Part shown: in pieces, positions 1 to 46,055 of the stretch
Position numbering within the stretch: the stretch's first letter is position 1
Layout: every line of letters starts with the position of its first letter
Assembly (NCBI GenBank): GCA_008360955.1
Contig: LUCM01008695.1
Location: forward strand, 326,596-390,595
Reading direction: 5' to 3'
DNA from: Fasciolopsis buskii
Lineage: Eukaryota > Platyhelminthes > Trematoda > Plagiorchiida > Fasciolidae
DNA length: 64,000 bases
Program-made: the position numbers and the translations under genes
The notes under the pieces: model-generated
Database searches by the model: none
The model's input: the letters and a program-made list of their open reading frames with translations, nothing else
What the model was told of the DNA's origin: nothing

Positions 1-3000
1 GATTTCGTCTCGGAAAATGCCAGAATCTATTAGTTATGGTTCACGAGCATGACTGATTACGAATTTGATTTTGGCGGTTATGATAGCTAGCTAGCATCGA
101 TTGGTCACTCATGGAAATAATAACTAATAGTCCAGTGAGTTTCAGTTAAGACAGTTACATTTACGCACAACCAAATGAACAACATGAATAATATGAATTA
201 CGTGCTTTTACTAAAACGCACAAAAGTCGTACGCAAATCGGCCAGTTATAAGAAAAATGGGCTTGTTTGGAAAAAAAACACCTACTTGGCAAAAGGACTG
301 CCATCTACACAACATGATCTCAACCATTTTGCTTTCACCCATCACACAGCGGACGGATTCGCATCACTGTCGAAACACAAAGTAATCTAGTCAACAGCGA
401 ATAGTGCGCTTCAAGACGTGACCATTTCGTTCCCAGCAAAATATTTTCTAATTAATTTGTTATCGGTTATCGTGACCTCGACACAGATTAATTTGGAAAA
501 ACGTACCCTGCTTTCGAGAATGTCTGATTGTTGGGTGTTTTTAGGTATTTTAGGCTTAATAATAAACTGATCATGTTTAGTGGTGATTGAAACGTCTATA
601 GATGCCTCTAGTTGTCCACTAATGAAACGAAATGATTGACTTTGTGATTTAAACTACTATCTGCTCAACAAAATCTCAGTCGAATCACTAGAGGCGTGAA
701 TCGATGATAAATTGGTTTAGGAATCACAGAGGGATTTGCCACGAGTTTGGCGTCAGCAATAGGACACAAAGTGTGACAGTTTGGGTTCTTGTTGCTAGCA
801 CTGAGCTTCACTCACACGGACGCATTAATAAACTTTCTTCGGGGACGTGCGACGGATTTTGTAGTTGCTGTGCCCGTTCACGAATAACAACGCGTACTTT
901 CAAATATGATGTCCCTTTTCTGAAGGTTAACCCTGCGAGATCGGCTAAAATCTTATAACGAATGACCCTATGATTCTCAAAAGGACTGATCATTCCTTTT
1001 TGCTCCTAGTAATTTAAACAGGATTCTAGTGCGAAACTAACAACGGAGTGAACAAATAGGGGTACAATTACACAGGCGACTACCCGCTACGTAATAACCG
1101 TGAAACCGACTGTATGCTTTCGGGTAAATTGTGTCCATCCAACGTGCTACTGACAACTTAGGATATTAGCCTTAGTACGTATTAGTAAAAAAAATGGAAC
1201 TTTAATACACCGGTAAGAAATAATCAAAAGTGACAGGCACACGTCTATTCGTGCTCACGTATTTGTTTCTGGCACATACCTAAAAGTCTGGACCAAGCTC
1301 CCCTATACAGAGGGTGTACAAACCTTCAAACAGCTGCGTGTAAAAATGAAATGACGGCAAACCCGTGCTCAGAATCTGTGACCACAATAGAACCGAGTGC
1401 TAAAATAAGGAAATTCCCTAATTCGAATGTGCTTCAGTGACTAAGCCTATTAAATTTCATTTGGAATCTTCACAAATCTTTCGCATTCTGTATGTGTGAT
1501 ATTGGGAATTGTCATTTCTGATACCCGTTTGAAATTGAAGGTTTCCGACCAATCAAAATCTAAGTTCTGTTTACAACTTGTTCGCTGAGCTTAATGTCCA
1601 GAAGACCTTTCCCTGTTAAACTTGATATTGACTCATTCGGAAGATTTGAACAGGTGGCCAGATGGGGCGAAATGGTACCAATGTCGCTTTTGACTTGGGA
1701 AACTAATTCTCATAATTTTGACTCCGTTAGATTTTGTTTAGATTTTGGGGATACTTGATTATTTCATTACGCACGTGGGTTTGAAGAAAGTTAAGATTCT
1801 TTACTGTCATGTAGAAAGTTTTCATTGTTTGGATCTGATTTTTGATTTCTTTATACTAGTCAATTCTTTTAGTCCACGTCAGGGGTACTCCTGATCCGGT
1901 TCATTGTACATTTAGAATCATTAAGATGAATCCTTTCGAACTTTCAAGGTTGCCTGATTCAAAGCTTGGACCAACTCCCTTCTGAGAACGCATCCTTCGA
2001 GCTCTTGAACATGACTAAGATAAGTTACGTTATTTCTTTATGTTCAGGCCATACTGTGGGATTCTTTTCTCCAGTCCGGTTGATGTACGCTTTTCCACAG
2101 TGAAGGCAGCTGACTGCACTTATGGTACTGGTTTTGGCTTTAGCTTTGATTCATTCAGCCGGGTAATGCCCTCCATGTAATTTAAACACGGGGTGACTTC
2201 ATAGTGTAACAGAGTGATCCTTGGTGGAAAACTGTCGCAAACTTTTTCAGAGTTATTACTCACGTAGTACGAACGTCCAGTTTGCCATTGGAAACCATGG
2301 AAGCAATGTATAGCTGTTTGGAATCATCAGCAGTGTTCCTTCATCCTGTGCTTGAAATAATGATGTCCGAATAACCTATGGAATCCATCCGGCTAGTTTG
2401 ATGGCTAAGTATTCCTGAGGTTGCGCCCGTTACGGCTCGATGAAAACCATACAACCAGAACCGATGGAGAGGATGACCAACTCTGTTGCAAAAACCAATC
2501 GGAACTGGTCCTCTAATGACGCAACAGTGATTAAGTCAAAACGTTGTCCAACAGACAAAGGTGAAACGTAGGACTCTCTCAGCTGTGAGCCACAATTTAA
2601 GCTGCCATTTAAGAACCAACATAGGCATAGAAAGGCCCAGGAATGCTCGCCAGTCAGAATATGGATCGTGTATGTGTGTAATATGCAAACGAGTAACACA
2701 TGGGCTGAACAAGCTACGTGAACTGGGACGTGTTTCGATGCAGATTAACCGAGCTAAACACTCGCTTGCCTTCTCGATACAGTTTAATTCTCTGTCAGTA
2801 TAAACGGCACGATTGAGGAAACAGAAACGGAAATATTGGTCGAGTATCCAAAGCATTTGAATGTCGCGGGATTTGAACCAGTTGGAACAGAAGAATGTAG
2901 ACCCGTTGGAAAACTGGCATGAGTTCTCGATTTCTAATATATCTTCACCAAAGGATCGTTGACTAACTGGTCGTTAGGACAATGCATGAACGTGAAACTT

Positions 3001-3601
3001 GATCATTTCTAAAATCGGGCAATGCGTGAACGTGTATAAGACCTGCAACTTTCCACTTCGTGGATATGCGGTCCGACGAACGGTCTGATGTAGCTAATGT
3101 TCACAACTTTGACCATGAGAGTTTATTTATGAATGCGAAAGAGCCGGTACCTTTGGAGCGCGATCCACTCAACCGTCTCAGCTTTTAAATCCAAAAGGGT
3201 ATTGGAACCTAATTGTCCAGTGTTTCCGCACTTCTACATTGGTGCTCAGTCTATTCCGATCGTCTTATTTTATCGACCATTAATGGCTTCATTTCTAACT
3301 TTCATTTTATTTGGAAATTAAAACGCCTGTGGCACATGTCCAGACACTGCTAGTAATAAGTCACATGGTTACATTACCTCATCAGAACCGATAAAAAAGT
3401 CTGTGTTAAAATCAAAGAAGATTTCTTCCATCGAAATTAAGCAGCCATTCATAATGTTTGGCTGCTTCCTTGAAAATCATGGTAGCAATAGATGATGGAT
3501 TTCATATCGGTTAATACTGTTTGAGAAATTTTTCGAAAATAGTGGATACCAAATCCGTCAAAAGAAAGCAAAATTTTTTGACTATTCGCTTCCTCTTTTA
3601 A
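1..3601. other. no recognisable gene or repeat
   Basis: AT-rich sequence with only short open frames (107 codons or fewer) on either strand. None has a recognisable domain, splice context or codon pattern. A lone B-box-like string in reverse at about 2868-2880 has no A box or SINE body nearby. I see nothing I can annotate here. Confidence 0.6.
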
Positions 3602-4180
3602 CTTCCTTCACACGAAATTACTGAGTTCTATCACGAGATCAAAGGGAGCTATAAACCGTGTGACGAACGACTTGTACCGACTGTGAGTAAGGAAGGCGAT
3701 AAATTAATCATAAATGGTCACGGCAATGGACAGCTTTTGCACTTTGCAGAATGTGTATGTGATCTCAACGGGGAGGAATTTCTCGTTCGTCGAATCCACC
3801 GATCTTCAGTATTTCATTCGGCAGAAATTCCGTGCAATAGTGAAACCATTTCACTATGGTCATTTCACCAATCAAGAAGTTCCAAACCTTTTTATCACAA
3901 GATTTTGAGGAATGTCAAGTTTTCTTCAAACAGCCTTGTGAAAAGCGTGAATGACTTTCTGAAACTTGAAACTAATCCAATAGGATTGAAATGTCCGACC
4001 TCTTGACCTGATACTGGTTCTCCAGTTACTATTCCCATTAGTGACGACCCGGACGGTCTTAATTGGGACTGTGAATCCTTGGGATTTGTCGACTGCCAAC
4101 TGAAATGGGTTCGCTCAACAGATGTCCGCACAACCCTCAAACGGAATTGGTTTTGTCATATTTTCTTGTCCTCCTGAAGA
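3602..4180 (+). other. nearly open frame, unidentified
   Basis: One plus-strand frame stays open from 3602 to 4003 (134 codons), meets a single TGA at 4004-4006, and continues open to about 4180. It has no in-frame ATG near its start, so it would have to be an exon or a decayed element rather than a free-standing gene. The translation includes the strings KEGDKLIINGHGNGQ and DDPDGLNWDCESLGF, and I recognise no family in it. It lies just upstream of the terminal-exon candidate at 4428, in a different frame, so a shared host gene is possible but unproven. It could also be chance in an otherwise featureless region. Confidence 0.2.
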
Positions 4181-4427
4181 ATAGCCTTGGAACGAATTGG
4201 GGTTTTTGTTCGTATCACCTGCGTTCGTAATAAACTCACAGATACTGAAGTCATTCTCGTCTTACAGCAGTCGATTCAAGTATTACCATCACAGATCTTG
4301 AATACCACACAATGGTTTTCACTATATCCAGGATGCAGTGTTTTGATGATCTAATTACTCATTCCAAAGTATCCGGAACAGTTGTCCGTTGTTCAGTCCT
4401 AGGGGACCGGATTGTATTTGCTTTCAG

Positions 4428-4583
4428 GTTACCAAAGAAAAAGTCAATTCTAACATTCAGTCAATGATGCGCAAACTCAATGATATGTCGTGGGATACTT
4501 TCGATGTTCAGGTCTTGTTACAAAATAGTGGGGAACTTATTGCTGCAGAAGTTTTCATGTATGTTCCTAAATCTGATGTCTAG
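4428..4583 (+). CDS. candidate 3'-terminal exon of an unidentified host gene
   Basis: A pyrimidine-rich tract ends in TTTGCTTTCAG at 4427, which is a good splice-acceptor match. From 4428 the frame encodes 51 residues starting VTKEKVNSNIQSMMRKL and ending EVFMYVPKSDV, then TAG at 4581-4583. The peptide has a helix-like first half and alternating hydrophobic (beta-like) residues in the second half (FDVQVLLQNSGE). I do not recognise the family. A resemblance to the C-terminal strands of AIG2/gamma-glutamylcyclotransferase-like folds is only an impression. A SINE in reverse orientation begins within about 30 bases of the stop, so any 3' UTR would run into it. Upstream exons are not identified. 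Confidence 0.3.
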   Translation, partial: VTKEKVNSNIQSMMRKLNDMSWDTFDVQVLLQNSGELIAAEVFMYVPKSDV

Positions 4584-4610
4584 TGGCAATTTAACCACGG
4601 CCACTCATCA

Positions 4611-4795
4611 TTTATCTTTTATCTTTTACTTCCCTTATCAATGAAACGACAATGTACATCAATTTTCAGGAAGGCAGCCACGGACAGCAGAGGGTTGCCA
4701 AGCGGGGAAGTTGACCGGCGGTGGGCGGATTCGAACCCGCGACCTTCACGTCCAAAGGCCACGACTTTATCCTTTTGGCCACCACCGCCCAAGGT
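4611..4795 (-). repeat. tRNA-derived SINE, copy 1
   Basis: This is a well-preserved minus-strand copy of the main SINE family in the window. Read on the minus strand it has a tRNA-like head with an A-box-like TGGCCAAAAGG and a perfect B box GGTTCGAATCC (complement of 4727-4737). A body follows that resembles the other copies (CGGTCAACTTCCCCGCTTGG, then CTTCCTGAAAATTGATGTAC), and the 3' end is rich in AAAGATAAA. The internal RNA polymerase III promoter and unique body are the standard plan of a tRNA-derived SINE. It sits immediately downstream of the candidate exon at 4428-4583. Confidence 0.85.
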
Positions 4796-5763
4796 CACTG
4801 TAAAATATTTGAAGTCTTTCAAGTGTTTCTATTTTTCTACAGCACAAACACTCACATACACACAGGAAAACACGTACACATCTGAAAAAGTTACGTGATC
4901 GCTACTCTTTAGTGTTTAGAAAGTTCATTTTTACCATACCTGTTTTTGCGCCTGTCTGGTATGAATTATTTACCAGTCAGTTATACCAGGAAAAAATAGT
5001 CAATTTATGTTAGGGCTTCCTTATACGACATATTCGATTCGAATGCAGACGATGTGCTAACTGCTACTAATGGAAGCATGCATTCATTTGCTATTTTATC
5101 CTGGAACAATTGTTTCTACTAGTGCCAAAATGTCTCTGATGACCATCGGATTACCAAGGATACAGAACTAATAGATGCATTTGCATCAGGACCAAGTTCT
5201 CGTTATACTTTCATTCGTTTTGACTGACCGGGAGAAATAGGAAATTCAAGCCAATCCTAATTGGACTACGTGGGCAAAACGCAGTGGACTGACTATTCCG
5301 GCGGATTTTAATCCCAGCATGCATTTGATCTATTTGGCAGAGGATAGCAAAACAAATCCAAACATTTGTATGCCTCGTATGTTCATCCAACAACGGGAAA
5401 ACATTTTCTCGCGCCAAATAGGCTGCCTTCAGACTGGACACTTTTCAACTGGAATTTAACCCTAAAAGCTGCACTACAAATGCAGTTCCCTTGCTCTGAC
5501 CTTTAGTTTACAATCACCGACTTTGTTTACCCCGCGAGCTGAACCATGGCATTTCCTTCAATGAAATTATGACCGTCTGGCTGCCTGATTTCTGTACTTC
5601 ACGGGCGGGCACGTCGTTTTTCCGGGTGAAGTTAACGAACCGTTAGTTATATCAAATTTTTAAATTCCTCGGCTATTAAACACGCTCTTCCCAAGATTGC
5701 TGCATTCCGGCTACCTTTTAATCACTCACGCTAGTGACTAGGTTAATGAGAAAACTGTCCTTT

Positions 5764-5949
5764 TATCGTTTTACATTTATCTTTTACTTTCTTTATTAAT
5801 GAAGTAACAGTTTACAACATTTTTCAGGAGAGGGCCGCCGACAACAGAGGGCTGCCAAGTGGAGACGTTGACCGGCGGTTGGCGGATGCGAACAAGCGAC
5901 CTTCACGTCCAAAGGCCACGACCTTATCCTCTTGGCCACCGCTGGCCAA
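5764..5949 (-). repeat. tRNA-derived SINE, copy 2
   Basis: Minus-strand copy of the same family, full length (about 185 bp). The 3' tail, the body and the A-box side (GGCCAAGAGGATAAGG) are conserved. The B box is damaged: where other copies read GGATTCGAACC on the plus strand, this one has GGATGCGAACA, so the copy is probably transcriptionally dead. It has diverged clearly from copy 1, which suggests a separate, older insertion. Confidence 0.8.
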
Positions 5950-6228
5950 AGACTGACCAAGTTACCGTTTACCTACAGTCACCAGCCCTGCAAATCCAAA
6001 TGGTTTGACCGTTCCACCAACGTTAAGACCTCTTTCAATCAAATAACAAAATGTTATTACAGTTCCCCTGTCGTGAATCTTAATTTCTTCCATATTTGAA
6101 GATTACAATAGTGAGTAAGCAAATACATAATCATTTCTACAGGCCTAAATGGACCAATACCAAACTAGCGAGTATAGAGTCCATCTTTTATCAGTGAAAT
6201 CTTCTTGTCTTATTGCACTCCTATGTTT

Positions 6229-6355
6229 ACCAAGGAGGCTGCGGCCAACTGAGGGTTTAAAACTGAAGAGGTGAACCTGGTCTGAAAGGATCTGAACACG
6301 TGACTTTTCGGTCGGAAACACACAGTGAGTCCCGTTTAGCTACCACACCCATGCA
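6229..6355 (-). repeat. old divergent tRNA-derived SINE
   Basis: Read on the minus strand this shows the same order of blocks as the main SINE: a tRNA-like head (GGTGTGGTAGCTAAACGGGA), a B-box-like GTGTTCAGATCC, then CAGTTGGCCGCAGCCTCC in place of the usual GCTGGCCGCGGCCACC. The head differs enough to be a separate subfamily or a very old copy. The AAAGATAAA tail is not visible. Confidence 0.5.
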
Positions 6356-6359
6356 TGGT

Positions 6360-7280
6360 GCACGAAATGGGACGGTATATGTAGATAAACGATTACGAGT
6401 GAAACGTCACTGCCGAAGTTGAAAAATCTTATGGAGCTGTCTAAGAGTATCAATATCTCTGTCAAAATCTCAATCTTTCAAGCCACGTGAGACAAAATGG
6501 GATTGAGTTGTAAATACAGTTTGCGTCCAAACGGCTTCCAATGAATTTTCCACTTGCTGACACTGAATTCCGAGGGCAGAACTGTGCTAACGACTTGGAC
6601 TTTTATCAAATTAAGAGGATGAAACAACTATATGAAAAATCATTCACGTCCGAAATGTTACTCGAAAGTGAACCTAAGCAACCTGTCTCCCCAGCTGACA
6701 GGAGTGAACCGGATTGCAACAAACACAGATGAACACGGGTTAATGGATATTTATCCATTCTGATTTGTGTGCTAGGTTTTCTCGCGACTGGCGTGTAAAA
6801 ACCCAATCAAACACTTCACAGACAACCGGACATTTTTGTAAATTGGAGCAGAATTCCCTAGTTTCATTTAGAAATATCCGAATGCCAATGGTTGGCTTGA
6901 ATCCTTAATCTTAGCAGTGACACTCCATTGCGATTTCTGAACGGATAGTGCAACGAACACAACAATCGACTGTACCCGAAAATTGCATTTTTACCAATTC
7001 CAATACGATTGAAATTTGATCTTTCTGAACGTAATGAATACCTTGTTTTGAGTTCAGTAGTAGACGTGGCCAAAACTGACTCTTCCGGGAGAAAAGCTAC
7101 AAAGATAAATTGTAGTCTTGCGTTTCATTAGAAAGAAATTTCTTCAAGTGGAGCATGAATGAAATTATTGTTATTATGAATGTTACGGATTGGAACCAAA
7201 AGGGGAAACTGTTAATGGTCTGAAATTATCAGCCGGAGAAATTTGCATTAAATAATATTATTCAAATGAACGCTGAGGTA
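6360..7280. other. no recognisable feature
   Basis: Only short open frames on both strands (under 70 codons), with no domain, splice context or repeat that I can identify. Confidence 0.5.
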
Positions 7281-7350
7281 TGTTTTGCCATTTCGACCTG
7301 AAGGTAGCGGGTTTGAATCTTCCCATCGTTTGTCAACTATTCCATTGGTC
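7281..7350 (+). repeat. SINE fragment (B-box region)
   Basis: A short plus-strand match to the main SINE: GACCTGAAGGTAGCGGGTTT, then GAATCTTCCCATCGTTTGTCAAC, which corresponds to the stretch around the B box and the start of the SINE body in the copies at 51.9 and 56.0 kb. The 5' head and the 3' tail are lost or too diverged to see. Confidence 0.45.
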
Positions 7351-9144
7351 AGCTTAATGCTGATCTTGATAGTCTTTGTAAAAGCGATGCGCACTGCGGT
7401 TTCGCCAATTAGAGGAAGTAAAAAGATGTAGGATAAGACAGAAGATCGGAACAGACAAGACTTGTTCATGTTTTCCTGCTATAGGTTGTCATGTTACCCT
7501 GGGTACTCGAGGCATTAGACGGATATCGTCTCCTTTGAAAGGATGTTTTTAATGACTGTCTTTATCGATTGTTTGTAATTCTCGCGAAGCAGATACATAG
7601 ACACGAAAAATACACACAGACACCGATATGCAAGTGTCTGAAGAGGCCAGTAAGGTTCCGAATCCAAAATCTTTACTGAATGTACGTGGGCGCGAACCTG
7701 GAAAAAATGAACTACTTTAGGTCTGGATTGGTAGAAACGCGGTTTATTCGTGGAAAACTAACTTGTTTTTGAAAAGTACAGTATGATACCGGAAAAGTGG
7801 ACAAATTGGAAAAATTCTAGCAGAGCCAATCTGATCCAGATGTGTGTGTATACATATTGCATACGACTGCGCGGTTCTGTCTTTGTTGTCGTTTCAATTG
7901 ATTTTTTGCTTTTACTTTGATACGACTTTCTCATCCAAAGTAACGTCATTTACGTGGACACTGAAATGTGTCGTCAATGAAATGTTGCAAATGGAGCTCA
8001 ACCCCGTGCAAATGATCATCCGGTTTTGCTTACAGTAACTGTGACCGTAAATCAAACTCCGACCTTGGAGCTTAAAATCGTTCTCTATAGCAATAATCCA
8101 TGTTCTTAACTGAATCCCGAGTTAGGAAAACCGGTAATTAGTGGGCAGGATTCCATTCCCGTGTGCTATATTTCGCGAGCAAACTATTGTGGTCGATGTC
8201 GCGGGCCGACGACAGACAGTCATTCTACATTCCACCCTGGCCTTGTTTTATCATCCCCTAGACATCCTTTCATGCCAATTTTTCAGAGGAATCGACTGCA
8301 GACACCAGGGACCAAATGGTTTCTAATTATTGAAACCTTTGGGTCGAGAGTATCAGATTTCCTACACCTAAGTGCACATAGAACGTGAAATAGCAAAGTT
8401 ATACAAACTTATTAGTAGTATGTTTCGCTGATGGATGGATGAACTCAAATTTTTCAGAAGCCCACGGCCAGTTTAACGGTTATTGCCGCTCCTCAGGTAT
8501 GCGCACCCGGTACTCTCTTGCCCAAACATCCCTATACACATATCTGAACAGCGCCAAGGACCGCGAAACCGGTCATGTGCTTCAAGGGAAATTTTGTTTA
8601 TCCACAACTGAGAAATTAACCGTTACTTTCGGACCTTTTTTTCCACTTTCTGAAGATTACCTTGCCTCGCCGATGAAAATCCTCCGAGGAATCACCATGT
8701 GATTTCTAAATGGGCGTATTTTCTACTCATTCCTCTCGATTCAAATTGTATTCTCGTGTGATGCGTACTTCATTTAAAGAGCTGATCACGCTATATTTCC
8801 GCGGCACGCGTCGCAGTTACAGAAACGGTCCGCCTGATTTGGCAATTCTTGCTTCATATATGCTTTTTTCTGGAAAATCAGGTGGAATACATTTGATCCA
8901 ATGCCTACTTTTATACACTACTCACTAGTAGTGGTGAAACATGTTCAAGGAAAATGTTTGCTAATTGCTCATGCATAATTTCTGAACAATTTAGTCCGGG
9001 AATATCGGAGTGTTTTTGTCTAATTGATTTTGATTTTTAGACTGAATTTTACCGTGTAAAGGTCTGTCTGACCGAGAATCGGCCGAAAAATCACTGGACA
9101 CATTCAACCTACTCCGGGGACGAGGAAAAGACTATTGGGCTCAG
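7351..9144. other. no recognisable feature
   Basis: AT-rich sequence with several open frames of 60-87 codons, for example 8439-8702 on the plus strand. I could not assign any of them, and frames on opposite strands overlap as expected by chance. Confidence 0.5.
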
Positions 9145-9145
9145 A

Positions 9146-9297
9146 TGAACACCCAAAGAACTAGCTATCGCATTGTCCACTGCTCGATTCGTGAAGTTTA
9201 CAAACAAAATTGCGGACACTGTCCAGTCGTTGTTTTATCCCAGAACGAACAGTGAATTCCGAAGTTTCCTAGGCGTACTTCAGCATCTATGCTGTAG
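9146..9297 (+). pseudogene. Ty3/gypsy-like retrotransposon fragment (end of RT)
   Basis: A plus-strand frame open from 9146 to the TAG at 9295-9297 encodes KIADTVQSLFYPRT followed by NSEFRSFLGVLQHL. This resembles the conserved block after the catalytic YxDD of Ty3/gypsy reverse transcriptases, where 'KI.A(V/I)..(F/W)P.P....ELRSFLGL..YY' marks the junction to RNase H. It is preceded by a stop at 9143-9145 and ends in a stop. No protease, integrase or long terminal repeats are visible nearby, so this is a small relic. The downstream 9300-9860 sequence may hold a decayed RNase H, but I could not confirm it. Confidence 0.45.
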
Positions 9298-12200
9298 TGA
9301 GCGAATAGCAGGTTGCTAGGAGCCCCTTGAGCTTTTCAGGCATGCCACAAGCTTTTGTTAGCTCCCAAAGGGATTCACAACTAATAAAAAGCTGCCCAAA
9401 AATCGGTGAAAAAACTAAAGGGGAATGCCGGAACGTGCAACTGTTTGACCGAATTTCCACAGCATGATTATTTTTGATACACTTTAGCGTTAATTTCCAC
9501 TTTGATTTGGCCGAGTGCGATGTACTTGTACAGCTACGGTGCTAACGAAAGGCTGTTTGTAGAAAATTCGAGCAGCAATGTCACTAAGATTGACACCCGT
9601 GCAGTTCTCCTAGACCATTTTGTCACTTTAGTTGGGAATAAGATAGAGTATGAATGTACTTCTTTGGAATGAAACTATCTTCCATGCTCATGTGAAGCGC
9701 AGCGGCTCGTCAAACTGGACAATCCACTGGAGCTCACAAGATCTGCAGCATTTAGGCAAGATTCTTGCACCTCTGTCGATTTTATGGCTCCCTAATTGAT
9801 TGTAGATTTCCACGGTTTCTGAACCACTGAACCGATCTCAACTGACGTTAAACAGTTCACGCCGAACACAAAATGACATTTTCCCACTTGGCCCGTGGGC
9901 GAATTAGAAAGTCAGTTAAAATATGCTCACCATTCTTTGGTTTTCTTAATTTGTTCCTTAGTAAAAATAGCCCGATGCCTTGCAAATTACGCGCATATGT
10001 TGGCAGCGCTTGTTTGACTTGTAAAGGATCAACTAGAAGGGGAAGGCCGAGGTGACTAGTTACCCCTTACTATCCCTATTTTTGGGCTATTCTTATCTGG
10101 TACTGTTTACGACCGGCCCGATGGGAGATCTTAACAACATGCTGAAGCCTGTGACGTTTGAAGTTTTGTAAAAAAAATGCTTTTGCTTTCATTTGCAGCT
10201 GAATAATGGTCTTGGATAGCCAAAATTTTACTTGTTTCAAGTGTAGTCTTTTGTTTCTCCCCAGAAGAATCAAGTATTCCGCAACTAAGCATCTTCCATT
10301 CAACTTCCGCCGAGGCTTTGTCGGTTTGCGTATCCTTTACGGATTTCAGCTTGGCCAATAAGGCGTTGGAAAGCGTCGGGTATTTTCGTGGCACCTTCAG
10401 AAGGGCAATCACTTATTCGATTTAAAATGCCATATTAAGTTTGATCTTGCATTACGGTTCATCGAAATGTGCAATTCCTGCGGAGGATTTGTAAAGTCTG
10501 TCCAGGTTTGAACACCAGTGTCGGTGTAATATTGATAAGACATGGATACAGTTTGTCACAAATTCTGTGATTAGGCATATGATCAAAGGTAACAAAACTA
10601 TCTCAGTCAAACAAAAATGGTGAATTTGAATAGATTAAGATAGCTGAGACTTGGTTTTCCGCGGGTCTTCTGATCGAAACTCTCTTTGTGCGCTCCACGT
10701 GGTAACAAACAGTCATTGAACGATCGGTCAGCGTAGTCACTCCAGAGTACGAGGACGTTGGTCACTGGACTGTCTTGAGGTGGAGCTAGATTACGGCGTT
10801 GAAACTCGCGAGATTTCCCACATGATGGCTCGAAACTTAAGGTGAAAGGGTAGCAGTCACTGGCGTTTACATTTTCGAAATAATTTCGTTTTTCTGTATT
10901 TCTTTGATATTATGTTTGCAGGATTTTCCGTTCACTGTTATTTAATTGTCAAGCGGTAGGTAACCAAAACCAGTGCACTTTAACGAAAGGCAAATGGTGA
11001 TTAGAATTCCAGATCGGTCACGCAGCCGTCTGATGATGGCTGTCCCAATGCATGCCACATGTGACAACCCTACCAACGCAGCCATAGTTAGATCGATTAT
11101 AATTCTGGTTTCTGTGTTCGCCAGGGCTTTGACAAAAGATATCGGCTATTTCAGAAAGCCTCTCTGAGTTGAACAAAGTAGACGGAATTTCAGCAGGCTT
11201 CTACCCTAGCTTGCATGTTGCTTTTACCCTGCAATGAATTCCGTCTTTTTCTGCCTTAGATGTGATGTTTTTGTGACAGATGTGGTCTAAGTGAATCCAG
11301 CAAACTGCGAACGGTGCAACAATCCATACAGTGTTATTTCCCTAGAAGAAACTGCGCAACGCTTGATCTATAGGCCGTCACATCTATGAGACCATGAATG
11401 TACAGATCAGCTTATTGGGTTCCAGGTCATTTTGGGTTTCTAGCTTCTGAACGTTTTAGACTGGTCACGTAACCTCTTTAAAGGTCGCTGTCCCCATGCA
11501 CACTGCACCCAAAAATTATTTGTATTGTTAATAATCAATCCTCGACCGCAGCATTCAACTCGTCAGGGGGCAGTAAAATGATCCAGGGTATAAGACAAAA
11601 TCGACTTTTAGCATCTATAGCCACTGAAGTGACCATTTGAAAAACAGGTGCTCAAGACTTTCCAATTTAGACAACAAAAATGCATAAAATCAAAATAGGC
11701 ATATGAATAGAAAACCGGACAAAATGATAAGAAAAAATACAAACTGGTGGACGCCGTCACCTAGCACTTTTGACCGAAGTATTAGTTGTTTCTTCATGTG
11801 TAATTCATTCGTGGACGAAAAAATGAACTATCGCTAGTCCTGTAATTGACAGTGACAGAAGAGGACCTTTTAAGTGGGAATGTATATGAGTGCGAAGAAG
11901 CCATGAAAAATACGGCATGACGATTATGATTGGTTTAGCTCAATTCAAATTTGAAACCACTGACCTTGAACGAACCAATTCCGGCTTTGATTGGTCCCTC
12001 ATGACAGGAGCAGAACAGAACTAGAAATGGTGAAAGATTAACTGTAAAATAACAACGTGGGCGACTATACAGCAGAGAAGAAATTTGGAGCGCGAGAAAT
12101 CCTCCGAATGCCGCACTGACAAAAACTATCCTTGGTTTCCAACCATTGTTTGGAGAAACTTTGTGAAATCCAAATTGGAGGTTTTATAAGACTAGCATTA

Positions 12201-13186
12201 TTCAGTCTATTAGTCACGAGATTCAAAGACCGCATATGCCCATCTACTCTCCCCGGTCATGTTTCTGAGTCGCGTGACAGAGCCAACCTTAGTGCAGTTG
12301 AAAAGATAGAGTTACAATGCAACGTACAAAACATCTTAGAGAGGTAGTAATGAAATCGTGATTCGTTCCTTTGAGAACCGGTGGGAAGCACCGAAGCCAA
12401 ATGGTTGAAATGCTTAATGCAACAAACCGGAAGACAAATTCGTAAGTTGTTCTATCCGTAAAAATTGAAACGAAGATTTAGCGTAACAGAAGAAATTTTT
12501 CGGTCATAGTTATTGCTGAGAACACGACTTATCATGGCCTGTGACAAGCTGAGGAATGGATAATTTCAATAATCCGGTAAGGAAAGTAGCCAGTGAATGA
12601 GTGCTCTAGATTCAGACGTACACAATTTGCCTACAGTTGCGTTGAACGAATGCACTATTATTTCTTCTAGCCTAGTGGAATATGGTTGCCGTGACTTTCT
12701 GTCTAAAAATTCCCGCTCTTTGTGGAGGTTAGAAAAACAGCTTTCTTGTAATGAAACCAATTAGGTAATATTACCCTGTCTAATGGCCGCATGAGAAACA
12801 GTTTTCTGCTTCATATAGTTGTCGAAACCATTATGAACAATATTCATCAATTTGTAGTGCCGTGATTACAATCAAACCTACGGTTTTGCCATAATCGATT
12901 TGTTGTATTCCGTGGGCAATGAAAATGAAGCATAATATTGTTTAGTAAATAATTTTGGATTACAAAAGTACAATAAGCGTCTCGACCGATCAGTTTTGTT
13001 CAAAACAGATGCCAAATAATCCTCGTTCATAGCAACTCGTGATCCATTGTTTGCTTGCCCTCGTTTTGTTCTCTTTAATTGTACCAAATTTCTTGCATCA
13101 CCAATCAAGGCTGGTGACCGGCGGGGTGAAATTTATCTAAAATTCCACTTAGATACCGATTTCTCTAATCTCCAAGTGCTATTCTT
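9298..13186. other. no confident feature
   Basis: This 3.9-kb stretch follows the gypsy-like relic. A minus-strand open frame at 10131-10412 (93 codons, lysine- and serine-rich) and a plus-strand one at 9873-10055 are the longest, and neither has a recognisable domain. I saw no SINE, LINE or PLE match. Confidence 0.45.
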
Positions 13187-13347
13187 TTTTAATCTTTTAC
13201 TTTCTTTATTAATGAAATAACAATCTGCATCATTTTTCAGGAACGGGGCCGAGGCCGTGTAGAAATTGACCGGGAGTGGACGGATTCGAACCCGTGACCT
13301 TCACGTCCAAACGTCACGACCTTATCCGCTTGGCCATCGTCAGCCAT
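13187..13347 (-). repeat. tRNA-derived SINE, copy 3 (internally deleted)
   Basis: Minus-strand SINE with a perfect B box (plus strand GGATTCGAACC, 13282-13292), an A-box side TGGCCAAGCGGATAAGG and an AAAGATTAAAA-type tail. The body is about 20 bases shorter than in copies 1 and 2 because the block normally reading GGCAGCCCTCTGCTGTC is missing. Confidence 0.8.
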
Positions 13348-15098
13348 TAGGCACGCATGTATTCGAATCCTTGTTTGCTGTAACTGCACTGATCACCGTG
13401 AGTCCACCGTCGTCATTGTTTTAGAATTGATTCGGCTAACAAATTCACTAGCTGGCCGTGCCCATCAGAGATCAATCCAGCAGACGATCATAGACATACA
13501 TGTATCGACCTGACTGTCAAATTATACCTGCGGCAATATTGTGTGACTTTCTAATATTCGTCCAAGGTCCTGCAAGTATTATTTAAATAAGTGCAAACAG
13601 AATGGATTATTACACTTCACTGTGGAACTTCACCTCACACTAAAAACTACCCTATAGAAGTGCGTCCTGACTGTACTACTTTCCTAGTAAGTAGTTTTTA
13701 CAATTTGGATGCCCAAACCCAAATTTAGTCTCATCTTACGAGGTCAACTCCAAGTACGTGGCTGCAAGGTCGTTTATAGTATTCATCAGAACGAGAGGTG
13801 CAATCCTCAGTGAATGGGAATAATACGTTTGCTGTCCTGTTCGCAAAAACCACTTGATAAATATCAATCAACTCCGCCACATTCTTGCGACTTATCCTGA
13901 AGCCAACGATCCCGAAAAGCTTGTCTAAATTTGAAAAACAAAGTGGACGGGAATGGAACATAGGTGCTGTATACAAAGACAACCTAAACAGTAGATTACA
14001 AATTCGGGTGGAATATTTAAAAAGGACGTTTCATTGGAAACGAGCTACATTTGCATAACATTTTATTCGTCCAGTGATGTTTCCCTTGTTCGCTCATCGT
14101 TACCGCGGATAATTCTTTTTTTCCCGGCAATCATTTCCTAATCTTCAAAGTTGTCTCTTTGTTGTAGCATTCAATCAATACTTTCGGAAAAAATAGCCTG
14201 TTCACCTTCATGTGTATGGGGTCAGTTACTTTAGCCACGGAAGCTTTTAGTACTGTTTGAAGCCATGAAAAGGTTAGAAAATAATTCTCGTAGATCATAA
14301 GATGCAAACAAGAGCTTGTGAAAAAAAATCCTTCCGGTAAAAATGTTTCTATTTTCTGCCTTACTTCAAAAATTATCCTAGGCAAGTTAGGGTCACAGGC
14401 TACTCGTTGTGGAAAGTAATCGGATGGAGGCAACATCTAAGGAAATAGGGGAACTCTCACGTGCGGCGGTCCTTTTAATTTTGCGAGAATAATAAAACTG
14501 CCTGGATATTGTATATCTATTATTCATTGAAATATTTAAACTTGGTCAAAGTATTATCTACATTGTCAGGAGTGCTTGGCAGGTGAGATAAATTGCCTAG
14601 CACAAATGAACCATTGTGGTGTCTGCAGCTGACAGTTAGAATTGATTTGACTGCTAACGTACGCGCCATTTGACTGGTTGTGCAACCGTTCTGTATCACA
14701 ATCATCGCATGGCAATTCATGTGGAATTTTGGCTTCTTTATGGTTTTTATTCCGTGTTATAATTGCTCGGGATTATTGTTGTTTGAACGTCCGGCTGGTC
14801 TCCATCCTTGATTTGGATCAGACAGTGATAAACCTTAGACGTATTTTATTTCATCCAGGAGGAAAACTCGTGACGGCTCTCAGGTAGCTCCGAAAACGTC
14901 CTGCGCATGCCATGATGTCCAGTCCGGTACACTTACACACGAAAAATGCTCTCCGTTCACAATGCAGTGCAACCTATCCCTCGAACTCCAATCACCGATT
15001 GATCTTGAAACCACTGTCGTTGGCATCAAAGAATTAGGGTCGATCGCGGATATTTGCTGACTCACCCGTATTGATCATATTCTTTATCCATCCATGGT
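13348..15098. other. no recognisable feature
   Basis: Open frames of up to about 101 codons occur on the minus strand (for example 14131-14436), but none carries a motif or splice context that I recognise. No repeat family match was seen. Confidence 0.45.
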
Positions 15099-16059: not shown

Positions 16060-17450
16060 TTCTGGGAAGAAGATACTTAAGCTTCTGTGCGCCGCTAAAA
16101 TTACCACATGGGTAAGTCCTAGCTGGCTATCTGTGTTAGGGCACAGTGCTGTGACTCTGACTGATTCATCCATTAATCTGATCAAAATCATTAAGTTCAT
16201 ATTTTATCTCTAATTACCGGAGACCTGTCACTACTGTTCTTATCTCAAAATCTATTATTTCTTTTGCTTTAATCAAAATCTTTCATCTCGTTTCCTTAAA
16301 GTCCTTTGGTCTTAAACTAACACAGTGTGCTTTTTTTTAAGCGCCTCCATTCTTGTAGGACTCATTCTGGCAGTCCATTTTCAGTTCGCCTGTTAATTTA
16401 ACAGGCCCACGTTGGACGCTTTCTTCTCTCTCATTCATCAGATTTGTAAGTCCTTAGAAGAATCAAGAAAACCGATAAGTTCTGTCTCCTTTACCCACTC
16501 GTCTGCATTCGATTCAATCTCACGACCTCTCCCATTTCATAAACTGGGCCTATTTATTTGTCTCAGGCGCTAAATAGCATGGTTGTCTGATAACATGACC
16601 GACCGAATTTGTGAACATGAGTGGACAGTAAAACTTCAGAATCGTACCTTAGCACTTCAGGTGAACCTCGAGGTTCCGTTCATTCCGCCCATCTTTTCTT
16701 TGAATACGTCACTGATTTATGGACCATTCCCTCATGTTGCTTGTTTAAGTTCACTAATTTTGCTCGTTTTCTCTCACATCGCTTCTATCAAAAGATTTCC
16801 GAACATTTTTTTAACTTCTTATCATCCAAGTGAAAGTTTTCTGCACAAGCTATTTTTTTAATCTGAACGCATGTAGATATTTCGGATGTCGTCGACTCAG
16901 AAACACTGACCAGAATTGGTTCTGGTATTCATCCCGAGGGTTATTATTGACATAAGTCTGAAGTGTCCTTGTCACATTTCCGCTTGTGTAGAGAATCTCC
17001 AAGGGTTATCTTCTTAAATCCGAAGGCCACGACACTCGATTGCGAAACAAAGTAACAACTATATTTTTCCATACAAATGTTTTTCCAATCCTTCTTTATT
17101 ATTCTCGAGGTTTCCGCAGGTTTATTCAAGAACGGCTGTAAACTTTCTTCCGTGGGACGATCGCTTATTAGCTGTTTCTTTCATACCATTCCACGAGCTA
17201 TATATATATATATATATATTTACACTGATTTATAACGTTTATTTCGATTTTTCGACCCAATCTAGAACTTGTTGTCAAACGTGAATGAGTGATATATACA
17301 TTTACATATGAAGCAGTCTTTCTCATAATCTCGCGTAATCTCCTTTATATTCCATACTCCAGTACTTATAGGAATTCTGCTGCTCCCTATCTGGTGCACA
17401 TCTTAACAAACCGAGACCGTGTTTAGCCGACTTCCTGAGAAAGTAATGGT
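16060..17450 (+). pseudogene. CR1-like LINE reverse transcriptase, copy A (decayed)
   Basis: Several RT landmarks occur in order on the plus strand, in different frames. KKILKLLCAAKITT (about 16066-16107) matches KEKMFKLLRSTNITT in copy D. A YRRPVTTVLISKS-like block lies at about 16213-16255. SGEPRGSVHSAHLFFEYVTD (about 16654-16713) is the 'SG.PQGSVLSP.LF..Y..D' block ahead of the catalytic YxDD. YRNSAAPYLVHILTNRDRV (about 17370-17425) matches the C-terminal ARILTNRDRV of copy B. Frameshifts and stops are frequent and a (TA)n tract lies inside, so it is non-functional. In life such an RT carries out target-primed reverse transcription in the nucleus. Confidence 0.7.
17199..17219. repeat. (TA)n microsatellite
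   Basis: Perfect TA dinucleotide run of about 10 copies inside LINE copy A. Confidence 0.9.
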
Positions 17451-23319: not shown

Positions 23320-24486
23320 GGAACGACTTTACTGGTATTCGAATGTCTCAGTACTTAATCAACAGAGCCGTGAACGTAAGGTGACTAGGTGACACTGATG
23401 TGTAATATAAAACACGGGTTTTTCAGCAAAGGTACACAAAATAAGAACTTGGAATTCAGTGCAGTAAGCCTAAGAGATACAACTGAATCAAAACGACTGA
23501 AAACAAGAGCAAGCCGCCGAGGTCAAAGCGGTTTGAGACCAGTGGTAGATTCGCATCGGTTATCCTGGGCAGACATGGGTAACTGATTGAATAGAATGGA
23601 TATTAGATCCCGAATGACTGTTTCAGTATATAAGATCCATTACAACAGCATGTACGTGTCCACACTGGGCTATCATAATCTCGGCCGTCAAATACAGTTG
23701 GCCCAAGCCAACGTTTGGGCTATTCAACCATAATTCGATTGATTTGTTTATCCGATCATTCATCTGGGGCATTTTCCTTGTTAGAAAACTAACGAACAAA
23801 ATCCAAGGACTGTGTGCGCAATAAAAACGTTCCATTGTAAATTTAAATAGAGTGCTTCCAAATCAAATAATTATGTCGTTATCGCGGGGGCTCCTGGAGA
23901 TGAGCACGGAGCTAAGGACGATTTACGAATCATTTTTCTGTCATATTATTCCTTCCACTACTTGAATCCACTCAGCAATTTTATGCACCGAGACGAACCT
24001 ATCCAAAAGAATCTGTTTTCTCCTCCACCCCAAAACAATCATAAATATCAGTGTGTAGAGAAAATTCACCGATAGTCTTCAACTTTTACAAGCGAAACCT
24101 CCTAGTTTTGGCCAAGCGAACCAAATCATCAATTCGTGTGACACTTAAATGGAATGAGATAAGGAGTAAGTTTCCTTGTAATTAGCCAAGTTTCCTTATC
24201 TATCATATATTACTGATGATAGGATTTGGAATATTTATCATGTTCGTTATTAATGTTGATCAAACAAATATTTCGCAGATTACCAGCTGGAAACCTGGTT
24301 GTTTAAGTGGAATTTGAAGGGCGTAGGTGGAGGTTTTGAAAGCCCTCCTCTATTCGTTATTTGTTGTGAATTTAGCAAACGACATTACTCTAGTGGATCC
24401 GCAGCAAATCGGAGGTGATCTAAATGGGAAAATTATTCAAGGTTTGAATTCGTAACACCAAGTTCTGAATCGCAATCCGATTTCCG
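23320..24486. other. no recognisable feature
   Basis: Short open frames only. A 65-codon plus frame at 23389-23586 has no recognisable motif. Confidence 0.45.
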
Positions 24487-24525
24487 TGGCAGTATCATGC
24501 CACGAAGTTCATCAAGCCGTTGAGA

Positions 24526-24600
24526 GCCTGCCCGGTGGCCCAATGGCTAAGGCTTTTGACTCAAGATCGTTCTACCCGGGTTCGTGTCCCCGTTCGGGCG
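24526..24600 (+). promoter_or_regulatory. tRNA-like internal pol III promoter, unit 1
   Basis: The A box TGGCCCAATGGC (24536-24547) and the B box GGTTCGTGTCC (24579-24589) match the TRGCNNARNNGG and GGTTCRANTCC consensus sequences well and are about 43 bases apart, as in tRNA genes. The arms around the B box (CCGGGTTCGTGTCCCCGTTCGG) are only partly complementary, so this is a tRNA-derived promoter and not a working tRNA. A TTTT at 24554-24557 lies inside the head and could terminate pol III early in this copy. Unit 2 reads CTTT there. Confidence 0.7.
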
Positions 24601-24604
24601 TGAT

Positions 24605-24659
24605 GGATATGCACTGATGATGATTCCTGACAAGGATGAAACAGCTGTATAGTGCTTCC
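24605..24659 (+). ncRNA. hammerhead-ribozyme-like motif, unit 1
   Basis: Order of parts: 5' stem I strand GGATAT-GCACTG, core ATGATGA (consensus CTGATGA, so C3 is changed to A), stem II TCCT-GACA-AGGA, core GAAA, a palindromic short stem III (ACAG/CTGT), cleavage triplet GTA ending at 24649, and 3' stem I strand TAGTGC-TTCC. Stem I pairs over six positions (one wobble) and again at GGA/TCC beyond an internal loop, as in natural type-I hammerheads. A second register puts an intact CTGATGA at 24613-24619 but weakens stem I. The four-pair stem III suggests action as a dimer. Confidence 0.7.
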
Positions 24660-24993
24660 ATGGTTTCTTTGTGGTGAGTTTAGCGATGATATCACATGGT
24701 GAATTATTTCATGAAAACATTCAACCTCCCACTGCTAGCATGTACCAAGTAATCAAGCTCTGTAGGTCATATCCAAAGCCTTCTTCTTACTTCAGCCAGT
24801 TGAACAGGAGTCATCGTTCAGTAAGGGCTAATCGCTGTGCTGGAGGCCCGTGGCTGTGAAAGTCAGTGGCGGATAGATGCAATATCATGTGGTGATGTCC
24901 ATCAAATTCCTGGAAGCCTGTCTGATAGCGCAATGACTAAGGCCTTTGACCCAAGATCGTTCTTCCCGGGTTCGTGTTCCATTTCGGGTGTGG

Positions 24994-25025
24994 TGGATAT
25001 GCACTGCCGATGATTGATAACCACG
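24994..25025 (+). ncRNA. hammerhead-like motif, unit 2 (broken)
   Basis: The stem I strand GGATATGCACTG and core CCGATGA (U4 changed to C) are present. The sequence then diverges and the GAAA and stem III blocks are missing, so this copy cannot fold as a ribozyme. Confidence 0.55.
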
Positions 25026-25045
25026 GTGATCTCTAAATCGTGATG

Positions 25046-25339
25046 AATAAACAATAAGATCTTTAATTAAACTTATATTTCGACCAAGAGCAATATATTT
25101 ATACAATTAGCAGATTCCTTACTAATGGTGGTTAGTACTATACATGTCTAACTTTGTGTTTGCATTTGAAATAACCGAATATCATGTGACTTCGTCTGGG
25201 AAGAATTCTGTTTACCAAATACGTTGGTTATTGTACACTTAACACGGATTATAGGCGATCGACTATTTTCTATGACTTCATTTTTTGGCACTCGTAACCA
25301 ATATCGCATTAGAAATAATGGCATAATTGCCATGATTTT
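25046..25339. other. no recognisable feature
   Basis: AT-rich spacer between the tandem repeat and the minus-strand LINE. Nothing assignable. Confidence 0.4.
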
Positions 25340-42000: not shown

Positions 42001-44082
42001 CAATCCAATCTTAAACAAGCAACGACGGGACAAGAAAGTGAGCTTTCGCAGCTCAGTGTTCTTGAAATAATTTAACCGATCAATATGATGACTAGTATTG
42101 CGTGTACATTCGGAGAAGGGGCAAACAGGTCAGCTGACTATGAGGGTCAGCAATTACATTATACAAACCCATAATCATAAGCTGGAGTTCCTTATACAGA
42201 TACGCCCAGAGAACTGAAGCATCTAGCCTTCAGAGAGATGCAGTATCACACAACCTAAATGTCCAAAGTTCTTAAGCTGAATATCATACTTCAAAGATCG
42301 AGGGTCAAAGTAACAGAGGTCACGTGGAAAATTAATGCTTAATTTGTTGTTCGGAGTTATTACAGAGGTCCAAGTACAAAGCTGATGATAAATCTATAAG
42401 TATGGAACATACTGAAAAATTGCACACATGCGCTGACGATATCACCTCGGCTGGTGATAAAAAGGTTTCCGATAGGAACGTAAGGTTCATAGATCAGAAA
42501 CCCATAAAAAAGTAATTCATTTGCACGACACCACATCATCTCACTGACGACAGACCCCCATTCCGATTGATAAGCAGCTTGCTGGGGTTTGCACAGACAG
42601 GTGTCATTCGCCCTGAGAAGCTTGATTTATCCAATCAGTTGTAATCTGTGACCAGTCTCGGTTTTCATTGTGGAGACATGCAGACGGATGACCGTGATCT
42701 CCGTTCATCTGAACAATCAGTCCGATTTCGGTGGTGTTTGTTCTTCCAATTGGTTCCCTTTTATTTGTTTTTTTCGGTATCCACGGCCTAGTGATTTTTT
42801 TCAAAATCAACCCATATGCGAACGTTTGTTTAAAGGTAAGGAGCACACGCGAAATAGTTGAATTCAATACAAATCATTGTAAAATTCAAGTGTCCATATT
42901 TGCGCCCACTTTCCTTCTTCCGCCAAATTTTGGCTCTTTCGACATGGATCCCACTAATTTGACTGAGTAGTCTTTTATTTGTCTCGAGTCTCATGGCGTA
43001 ACCAAATTGTATCCTCACTGTTCACTGCACAGGTAGCCCAACTTCTTTTGGATCACTCACTTCGAATGAACAGTTATTGCCCGACTACCTATCTTACAAT
43101 ACTCGGTAGCATCGCATATTTCAAATAATTCCACATTAACAACGGTTATTTAGTCCTATCTTTACATAATGTACTTTTGCAAAATCCATTGTCCATTTGC
43201 ACGGTTAGCAGGACAGAGATCAATGAAGAACCCGGACAAATGTTTCTCCCCTTGCGCACAACACTCAACTGGCTGTACTGCAGTTCCGAATTTCGTTAGT
43301 GTCACCTAATGATTTTAAGGGGTTAGCTTTCCAACGTGAGTGTTGTGCTTCGTTGCACACGTATCGAATAATTTCTGTTGTAATATTCTCCTGAACGTTT
43401 TCCTTGTTTGTACGTAACTAGACATACACTTATATCACGGGTGAACTTATATCCATCGAATACCCAGTGGTATAGCAAAATGACCGGCACTCCAGTGATA
43501 ATAAAACCAGGGGGACATGGTGACATAAGTCAACTTTTACTGGTCAGACCAGTGTAAATCAATTTGTCCATAGTTTGATAATATCCCAAATACTTAATGT
43601 CCTTCAAACATTTCCCCTACAAAACAGCACATAAGCCGATGATTTGGAACTTTTTCACTGTTTTGTTTATTTGCGAATGATAATTTACAAATTTCTGTCT
43701 TAACGGTGCCTCTTATCACGTTTGATCAACCCGATTGGTGACAATGCATTGAACAGAATTGTTACCAACCGTTTCGATCTAGTCCCTTAAATTTGGTGCT
43801 CTAATCTTAGCCAGTGATCGTTTTAGTCCCAAGGTTTATTCCCGGTTAGCTTCTCATGCCTTAAGGTGGCCAAAACAATCAACTCACGGTTGCATAATTT
43901 TCTCGGGGAAAACGTCTTCTTTGCCCTCAGTGATCTTTCTTGAATCTCCAGTGATGCCATTCTCTGCATAGAATTGCTGGATTTGACTTTTGATGTTTGT
44001 TATCCGGTAGAAAAGTTTCATTCTGGAATGACCATATTGCTTAAGTAATATTGAAGGTGTTAAGGAGACGACAGAGACATGT
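42001..44082. other. no confident feature
   Basis: The first few hundred bases may hold the rest of PLE copy 1, but no GIY-YIG motif is visible. The overlapping short frames at 42604-43018 on both strands have no recognisable domain. Confidence 0.4.
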
Positions 44083-45400: not shown

Positions 45401-45527
45401 ACAAAATGGATACCGATTGTTCTTTATTCAACCCAAAATTTACATCACTCGGGTCACAGTCGTGAGTAATTTTATGCACATCCTTGTTAGATCATACATT
45501 TTAACAGTAAGAGATTGAATGTTTTCA

Positions 45528-45880
45528 TGAAATAATTCAGCATGTGATATCATCGCTCAACTCAACACAAAGAAACCACGGAAGAACTGTACAGTTGGTT
45601 CATCCTTGTTAGCAATCAGCAGCAATGCATATCCACCGCGCCCGAACTGGCACGCGAACCCGAACAAGGACGAACGATTCTGAGTCGAACGCCTTAGTCA
45701 TTACGATATCGGACAGGCTCTGAACGATTTGTCGAACTTCACCACATGATGTCGCACCTATCCTTCACTGATTTGCACGGTTACTGTCCGCTAGCTCAGA
45801 GCGGTCGACCCCTACTGATAGATGACTTCTCCGCAGGCAGCCTAAGTGCGACGAAGGCTTTGGATATGACCTACAAAGCT
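45528..45880 (-). repeat. pol III / hammerhead repeat unit, inverted arm 1
   Basis: A 353-bp unit with, on the minus strand, linker, tRNA-like head, hammerhead-like motif and tail in the same order as the array at 24.5 kb. It is nearly identical to the plus-strand unit at 48379-48731: five differences in 353 positions, all transitions, with no indels. The head starts about 162 bases from the linker start, as in the other copies. It abuts the plus-strand unit at 45881 head to head. Confidence 0.8.
45581..45634 (-). ncRNA. hammerhead-like motif in inverted arm 1 (decayed)
   Basis: On the minus strand: stem I strand GGATAT-GCATTG, core CTGCTGA (A6 changed to C), stem II partly paired around CTAACAAG, GAAC instead of GAAA, stem III reduced to CAACTG, GTA triplet, and CAGTTC. 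Changes at two conserved core positions should abolish cleavage. Confidence 0.55.
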
Positions 45881-46055
45881 GGACAACTTGGTAGCTTAAT
45901 GGCTAAGACGTTCTATTCAGAGTCCTTCGTCCGGGGTTCGCCTCCCTGTTCGCGCGCGGTCGATATGCACTGCCGATGAATCTCAACAAGGATGAAACAG
46001 CTGTACATTGCTTCTTTATGGTGAGTTGAGCGATAATATCACATGGTTTATTATT
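45881..46055 (+). repeat. pol III / hammerhead repeat unit, plus strand
   Basis: The tRNA-like head starts at once (A-box-like TAGCTTAATGGC, B-box-like GGTTCGCCTCC), followed by the hammerhead-like motif and the tail GGTGAGTTGAGCGATAATATC. The usual upstream linker is missing. It lies head to head with the inverted arm ending at 45880, so two units diverge from this junction. Confidence 0.7.
45961..46014 (+). ncRNA. hammerhead-like motif, unit at 45.9 kb
   Basis: CGATAT-GCACTG, core CCGATGA (U4 changed to C), a stem II that no longer pairs well (TCTCAACAAGGA), intact GAAA, intact palindromic stem III (ACAG/CTGT), GTA triplet, and CATTGC with one mismatch in stem I. This is the copy with the best-kept 3' half. 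Confidence 0.6.

Follow-up and report, generated by a model that had tools for sequence, protein, structure and literature searches.

A decayed tandem copy in the window

The window, by which we mean the whole 64,000-nucleotide stretch of Fasciolopsis buskii DNA that was analysed, contains at 24489-25029 on the plus strand an old and decayed retrozyme copy of about 1.4 units, recognised by alignment to a family consensus and by genome search. It consists of 15 nt of one unit, a 390-nt unit and 136 nt of the next, and is 83% identical to the 392-bp consensus over 528 nt (consensus 378-392, then 1-392, then 1-136). The two tRNA-like heads, 390 bp apart and each with A and B boxes, that a preliminary description had noticed are indeed present. 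The head of unit 1 occupies 24530-24600 (+), with box A at 24536-24546 and box B at 24579-24589, placed from the consensus box positions; the second head spans 24926-24979 (+), with box A at 24926-24936 and box B at 24969-24979, placed from the sequence and alignment. The Rfam tRNA model matches the unit-1 head at 18.9 bits, under its gathering score of 29, and ARAGORN made zero tRNA calls in the window.

The same description gave each head a hammerhead-like motif, which is clear in unit 1 and does not hold for unit 2, where similarity is lost before GAAA. By the consensus structure and a comparison of cores, the unit-1 hammerhead lies at 24602-24661 (+), with stem I formed by GCACTG (24611-24616) and TAGTGC (24650-24655), the core at 24617-24623, GAAAC at 24638-24642 and the expected cut at 24649|24650. 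The family reads GCACTG-CTGATGA-TTCC..GAAAC at this place and window unit 1 reads GCACTG-ATGATGA, with C3 changed to A at 24617; the CTGATGA core named earlier was 3 nt out of register, the true window core being ATGATGA. What is left of the second hammerhead, at 25001-25029 (+), is a 5' half reading CCGATGA, and its 3' half is unrecognisable, the alignment fading ahead of GAAA. Rfam finds no hammerhead in window 24400-25150, even at E 10. A transcript across several units had been expected to self-cleave; judged by the C3-to-A change in unit 1 and by CCGATGA with the lost GAAA in unit 2, both appear dead in this copy, and self-cleavage is not expected.

The two units of the copy are 78% identical by BLAST and 81% identical over shared consensus columns, against more than 99% in several arrays elsewhere (L009, L010, L011, L018, L027, L030 and L044), so the copy is old. 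The family's reverse transcription start sites, as mapped from the ends of 43 insertions, fall inside it (24716-24743, +), site A at about 24716 and site B at about 24743. The window holds two further copies. One, at 45495-46055, has a main arm at 45495-45893 (-) with a B-type end and an inverted arm at 45890-46055 (+) with an A-type end at consensus 205; the other, at 48378-48736 (+), is nearly one unit, running from consensus 252 round to 213, with an A-type end.

A dispersed tandem family

A search of the 703-Mb assembly, which had been set as a test of whether further tandem copies exist, found them: there are at least 107 dispersed family matches among the 40 places scored of 4195 candidates, so that the true copy number is larger. 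Since related arrays are dispersed over the assembly, the tandem structure is far beyond chance. The 392-bp consensus was built from 64 near-full-length units taken from the window and from the loci of the genome search; loci L002-L008 were not taken into the analyses, and L048 and element pieces shorter than 250 bp were left out of the unit comparison and end mapping. Some arrays have seven full units plus partial ones (L010 and L036). Some arrays are near-uniform, with a mean identity of 0.999 in L009 and 1.000 in L011, and in L026 and L036 the inner units are alike and the edge units diverged. Single-N joins and adapter junctions occur inside several arrays, where assembly gaps have been filled, and the inner homogeneity of L026 and L036 is therefore unusable as evidence. 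Nextera adapter junctions, for example, stand within repeat arrays beside a single N at L015 2381-2419 and L017 2431-2470.

The arrays also show an excess of C-G transversions, which make up 29% of pairwise between-array differences (L009-L047), compared with 9% between copies of Penelope-like elements (PLEs) in the same genome. Among the C-G changes from the retrozyme consensus, 171 of 279 are in TC context, and by site they affect 30 of 53 TC sites and 47 of 133 others (Fisher P 0.009). Base-pair flips in the RNA were rejected as the source of the C-to-G changes, there being 6 double and 189 single flips, and the excess may be an assembly effect.

A tRNA-derived head and a type I hammerhead

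In the 392-nt consensus unit, the two boxes begin at 33 (A) and 76 (B), the core CTGATGA at 114 and GAAAC at 135, and the ribozyme is expected to cut after position 146 (GTA|CAGTGC). The sequences TAGCGTAATGG and GGTTCGCGTCC are those that we take to be box A and box B, respectively, by comparison with the pol III box consensus. Several relatives match the Rfam tRNA model at 23.7-25.6 bits, again below the gathering score of 29. These features describe a head that derives from a tRNA and bears the A and B boxes of pol III genes, its use as a promoter being putative; the unit contains no run of four T and consequently no obvious pol III terminator.

The hammerhead, for which a covariance score across the family had been proposed as a check, is found in relatives, though below the Rfam gathering score. 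Hammerhead_HH9 matches 6 of the 10 loci searched (L009, L010, L011, L018, L022 and L035), all under the gathering score of 52; the best unit scores, in L009-L011, are 25.0 bits (E 0.061 over 4227 families), those in L018, L022 and L035 are weaker, and one fold-back match among the relatives reaches 28.6 bits. Searching L012, L014, L026 and L036 gave no hammerhead at E up to 5. The assignment to type I rests on the core and stems of the consensus and on the HH9 matches of the relatives; the window copy itself has no such match.

Covariation was assessed in an alignment of nine related rows, comprising five family members and representatives of two other hammerhead families (L066 twice, window 8526, and L071). 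In this alignment 86.7% of cells pair, and double-changed cells number 23; shuffling gives 7.9, with none of 500 shuffles reaching the observed count, and sliding the structure gives 6 at most. Two measures are weaker: 35 of 500 shuffles reached the observed number of pairs carrying a double change, and 111 of 500 that of further pair types. Compensatory changes across the three families thus support the hammerhead fold, as support rather than proof with nine related rows. Of 136 units, 64 keep an intact core, as do 21 of the 43 array consensuses, the core being damaged in the other 22; G5 is C in 13 of the 43 arrays, and a comparison of core columns with random columns shows no selection on the ribozyme core (P 0.85). 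All 43 arrays have U at both position 10.1 and position 11.1, which leaves the base of stem II with an unusual mismatch. The palindromic sequence of stem III, ACAGCUGU, suggests that a dimeric form of the hammerhead could exist; amphibian retrozyme hammerheads are described as acting as dimers (PMC7229834).

Two other hammerhead families were encountered. A remnant of one, at window 8526-8598 (HH9 26.6 bits, E 0.023; stem III palindrome ACCGGU), has relatives in L066, where two copies in inverted orientation lie at 1028-1099 and 1148-1219. The other scores 41.9 bits and occurs in L071 and L078 (C2587, near 84314 and 95761), with an apparent tRNA-type box pair just upstream, as judged by eye.

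Two fixed and opposite ends

Ends were mapped in 43 insertions, namely 39 genomic places, one extra copy in L011 and the three window copies. Because the sample was chosen by likeness to a two-unit query, it favours arrays, and some mapped ends adjoin assembly gaps (e.g. L018 and L030). The 65 RNA-3'-type ends fall largely into two classes, 33 in class A (consensus 203-223, centred at about 213) and 23 in class B (229-249, centred at about 240), with 9 elsewhere; the 21 5'-type ends are scattered. The copies that lay outside the query-based choice (window 45495, window 48378 and L011.3989) likewise have A or B ends.

In twenty-two insertions a head-to-head inverted arm supplies a second 3'-type end, and these comprise 17 A/B, 1 A/A, 2 A/other and 2 B/other pairs; opposite ends are therefore found in 17 of the 18 inverted-arm insertions with both ends classifiable. 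The sole A/A pair is L023; inspected by eye, its left end could be a B end that has suffered a deletion. Among the 17 A/B pairs, 12 have the A end on the long arm and 5 have the B end there, and the A-B offset has a median of 25 nt (range 17-38). In 16 of the 22 insertions the arms share an overlap of 1-5 nt where they meet head to head. When 21 inverted arms were compared with all arrays, 2 were strictly closest to their own, and the private sites common to arm and own array are 6 of 7 in L041 and 5 of 6 in L044.

TSD-like repeats of at least 10 nt join the flanks of 9 of the 22 two-ended insertions, compared with 1 of 460 mismatched flank pairs, and the remaining 13 of 22 have no flank match of that length; among one-ended copies, a match of at least 9 nt is present in 3 of 18, compared with 1 of 304 mismatched pairs. 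This test covered 40 of the 43 insertions, those left out having an N in the flank or lying too near the end of a locus. The flanks are 65.7% AT within 15 bp and 59.1% AT further out. The TSD-like repeats and the defined ends support retrotransposition of the family and, with it, the earlier suggestion that it is copied by a retroelement route. A short non-coding tandem unit with a hammerhead, dispersed with TSD-like repeats in part of its insertions, answers in these properties to a retrozyme, and two adjacent 3' end sites that give a tail on one inverted end are the pattern described for the PLE pathway.

Penelope-like elements of the same genome

PLEs of the kind that could serve as helpers are present, with abundant RVT_1 and GIY-YIG frames. 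PLE family 1, entered through a GIY-YIG frame detected with PF01541 in L050, has at least 150 matches among those scored of 3598 candidates; the frames beside it match RVT_1 at E 4.1e-6 (27.1 bits, cut-off 29.6) and GIY-YIG at 23.4 bits (cut-off 22.6). At least 89 homologues of the PLE frame were found, with proteins of Clonorchis, Opisthorchis and Trichobilharzia at 44-46% identity, and a PDB search with a PLE frame returned nothing. Copies of PLE family 1 stop at two places about 52 nt apart, mostly beside (TA)n, as classed by eye. Three of the six inverted pairs examined in it are classifiable (C6338, C4434 and C2400) and all three have one end per class, the longer end of C2400 falling short of the usual place; C1979, C2633 and C3827 are unclassifiable. 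A second PLE family has an 813-codon frame in one copy, and the four copies read end in TA-rich DNA at one site. The PLE match in the stop-free 813-codon frame (G000 C6157:193343-194503) is possibly a recent autonomous copy.

No sequence shared between the retrozyme start region and the two PLE families was detectable, and neither of the two is a partner with a matching start region or the same target choice: both adjoin (TA)n, whereas the retrozyme mostly does not. No sequence kinship emerged between the 3' region of PLE family 1 and the retrozyme, three copies giving P 0.19-0.66 and the tail by itself 0.21. The spacing from core to B is 127 nt in both the retrozyme and PLE family 1, an agreement that may be chance. 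Fragments resembling the 3' regions of the two PLE families occur in the window at 17199-17293, 42429-42462 and 55157-55228.

Discussion

What might move an element that encodes no protein of its own? We consider that the copy at 24489-25029 is probably a dead member of an SM-alpha-like retrozyme family moved by PLE machinery, the part of the PLE as helper being deduced from the ends of the insertions. In intact relatives, a pol III promoter derived from a tRNA would drive transcription through several units, and the hammerhead may cut the RNA and join it again. A Penelope-like RT/GIY-YIG protein would then reverse transcribe it in trans, each of the two nicked target strands being primed at its own internal site of the RNA, A for one strand and B for the other, and the two cDNA arms would join head to head at short microhomologies to give an insertion with inverted arms, a tail on one end and TSDs. 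It had been suggested that the transcript would self-cleave into unit-length RNAs that could circularise or be copied. As a direct template, a linear, ribozyme-cut monomer is not compatible with the multi-unit copies, which run through the expected cut site, and on the evidence of those copies the template must be an uncleaved, multimeric or re-circularised RNA.

The family resembles SM-alpha and Sj-alpha of Schistosoma, and the preliminary description was right to place it on the SM-alpha plan, with pol III-type boxes and a type I hammerhead in a tandem family. As in those elements, going by their published descriptions, the repeats are of 300-400 bp, tandem and dispersed, in very high copy number, with a tRNA-derived head and a type I hammerhead, the likeness being one of plan. 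SM-alpha of S. mansoni is reported to derive from tRNA-Gln-TTG and to provide over 38,000 hammerhead candidates (PMC2770079), and working hammerheads are reported from related satellites (PMC8490949). Unlike them, the present element is found in F. buskii, a non-schistosome, and its stem II begins U-U in every one of the 43 arrays. On the one gene compared, a sigma-GST exon agrees with Fasciola hepatica at 48 of 70 positions and with a 28-kDa GST chain of schistosome type at 20 of 69, which places this trematode closer to Fasciola than to Schistosoma; an eEF1G-like exon was uninformative in this respect, and searching proteins with the GST exon returned nothing. It likewise resembles the metazoan non-LTR retrozymes in having units within the range of 150-450 bp, in tandem, with type I hammerheads, dispersed copies and TSDs longer than 4 bp (PMC7229834, PMC7761336). 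It differs in its tRNA-like promoter head, the review describing retrozymes as seemingly without promoters (PMC7761336), and in its PLE-type paired ends, for which we found no counterpart in the retrozyme accounts consulted (PMC7229834, PMC7761336).

With PLEs, exemplified by PAc of Anolis and by those of Adineta vaga, the element shares a hammerhead upstream of two adjacent reverse transcription start sites, a pair of inverted ends with the tail on one, partial tandems, AT-rich targets and TSDs of about 8-14 bp, as far as these are described (PMC11167929, PMC3846280). For A. vaga, two inverted pLTRs are reported of which one carries a 31-bp tail; the TSDs measure 8-10 bp, and one case has none (PMC3846280). 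The present unit, unlike a PLE, is short, with a pol III-type head in place of the RT/EN ORF, and its median A-B offset of 25 nt compares with a reported 30-40 nt and with the 52 nt of resident PLE family 1. In vitro, the PLE protein is reported to cut and extend both target strands and to start reverse transcription at two adjacent internal RNA sites, giving rise to the tail, a behaviour described as unique to Penelope-like elements (PMC11167929). The main start is reported to lie 111-118 nt inside the ORF, with the hammerhead cutting at +26 (PMC11167929), which by subtraction puts the PAc start 85-92 nt after the cut; sites A and B lie about 67 and 94 nt past the expected cut in the present unit. 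In vitro, the top and bottom strands are reported not to differ in where synthesis starts (PMC11167929), a comparison distinct from the opposite-end rule, which concerns pairing within one insertion. Against a PLE model stand the 9 of 65 ends in neither class, the one A/A pair, the shorter A-B offset, the 13 two-ended insertions lacking a flank match of 10 nt or more, and the want of a matching start region and target choice in the two PLE families read. The cores, no better conserved than random columns and damaged in 22 of 43 array consensuses, the two weaker covariation measures, the query-based sampling and the filled gaps inside arrays weigh on the same side.

The nearest alternative keeps PLE-type insertion and replaces the self-cleaved circle by a long linear multimeric transcript, making the hammerhead dispensable for mobility; we give it close to, and slightly below, an even chance. 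L010 is a mosaic at positions 94 and 299, and it and L009 each hold one unit with the same 3-nt insertion, which points in L010 to multimers or to template switching and away from a single circle, so that one monomeric circle as the sole source of arrays is not sustained for L010. The arrays in which G5 is C point the same way, as does the report that hammerhead mutants left in vitro insertion unchanged (PMC11167929). The near-uniformity of L009 and L011, the abundant circular RNA described from other animal retrozymes (PMC7229834) and the prospect that the mosaic and the dead cores are partly assembly effects argue in the other direction.

A further alternative replaces the PLE itself, treating the element as a SINE moved by a LINE of CR1 or RTE type, with L1-like twin priming producing the inverted arms. 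A tRNA head, TSDs and microhomology at inverted junctions are compatible with LINE-moved SINEs too, and an RTE-like frame is visible by eye in L050. In L1 twin priming, however, the outer end of the inverted arm is expected to fall at variable internal sites, with one end alone being fixed. Here both ends are fixed and opposite in nearly all classifiable pairs, which is not the pattern of a LINE-dependent SINE, and no A-rich or microsatellite tail was seen at the ends inspected by eye; we regard this explanation as improbable. Plain satellite DNA, spread by unequal exchange with the ribozyme as passenger, would suit the seven-unit arrays, the inactive cores that are common and the alike inner and diverged edge units of L026 and L036, but that inner likeness may stem from gap filling, and the existence of short, dispersed copies that stop at fixed points and have TSD-like repeats and inverted arms makes the explanation highly improbable, although unequal exchange may lengthen arrays after insertion.

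Movement by PLE machinery, the reading we prefer, permits a wider interpretation that we offer tentatively, as one with somewhat less than an even chance: that the A/B rule reflects one RNA primed from both target strands, and that retrozymes parasitise this step of the PLE cycle. A PLE ribonucleoprotein, probably a dimer, would place the nicked strands on neighbouring start sites, one strand per site, and a complete insertion would be an inverted pair with a tail on exactly one side. The retrozyme would keep the hammerhead and the two-site module near the spacing of an autonomous PLE, the pol III promoter replacing the ORF. The A/B ends would also bear on how PLEs join the second strand, as the two strands nearly always use different start sites.

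PLEs have been proposed as a strong candidate helper for animal retrozymes, with the mover stated to be an open matter (PMC7229834), and retrozyme repeats are described as having no motif that reveals the helper (PMC7761336). No report of PLE-type tails in retrozymes or SM-alpha was found in the literature searched, most subscription papers being outside that search. The kind of element described here is already known, and the evidence for PLE-type insertion is the part of which we found no published account. Paired A/B ends would be a helper-revealing mark, one that can be searched for in Schistosoma SM-alpha and in the retrozymes of coral, mussel and axolotl, and the end signature of this retrozyme suggests what moves such elements in animals.

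Other features of the window

A Pfam scan of window 1-14000 in frame 1 found nothing. Another tRNA-like stretch lies at window 4717-4788 on the minus strand (25.2 bits). A U1 snRNA-like match at window 55829-55984 scores 62.2 bits (E 5e-13), under the gathering score of 69.5, and is either a divergent gene or a pseudogene.
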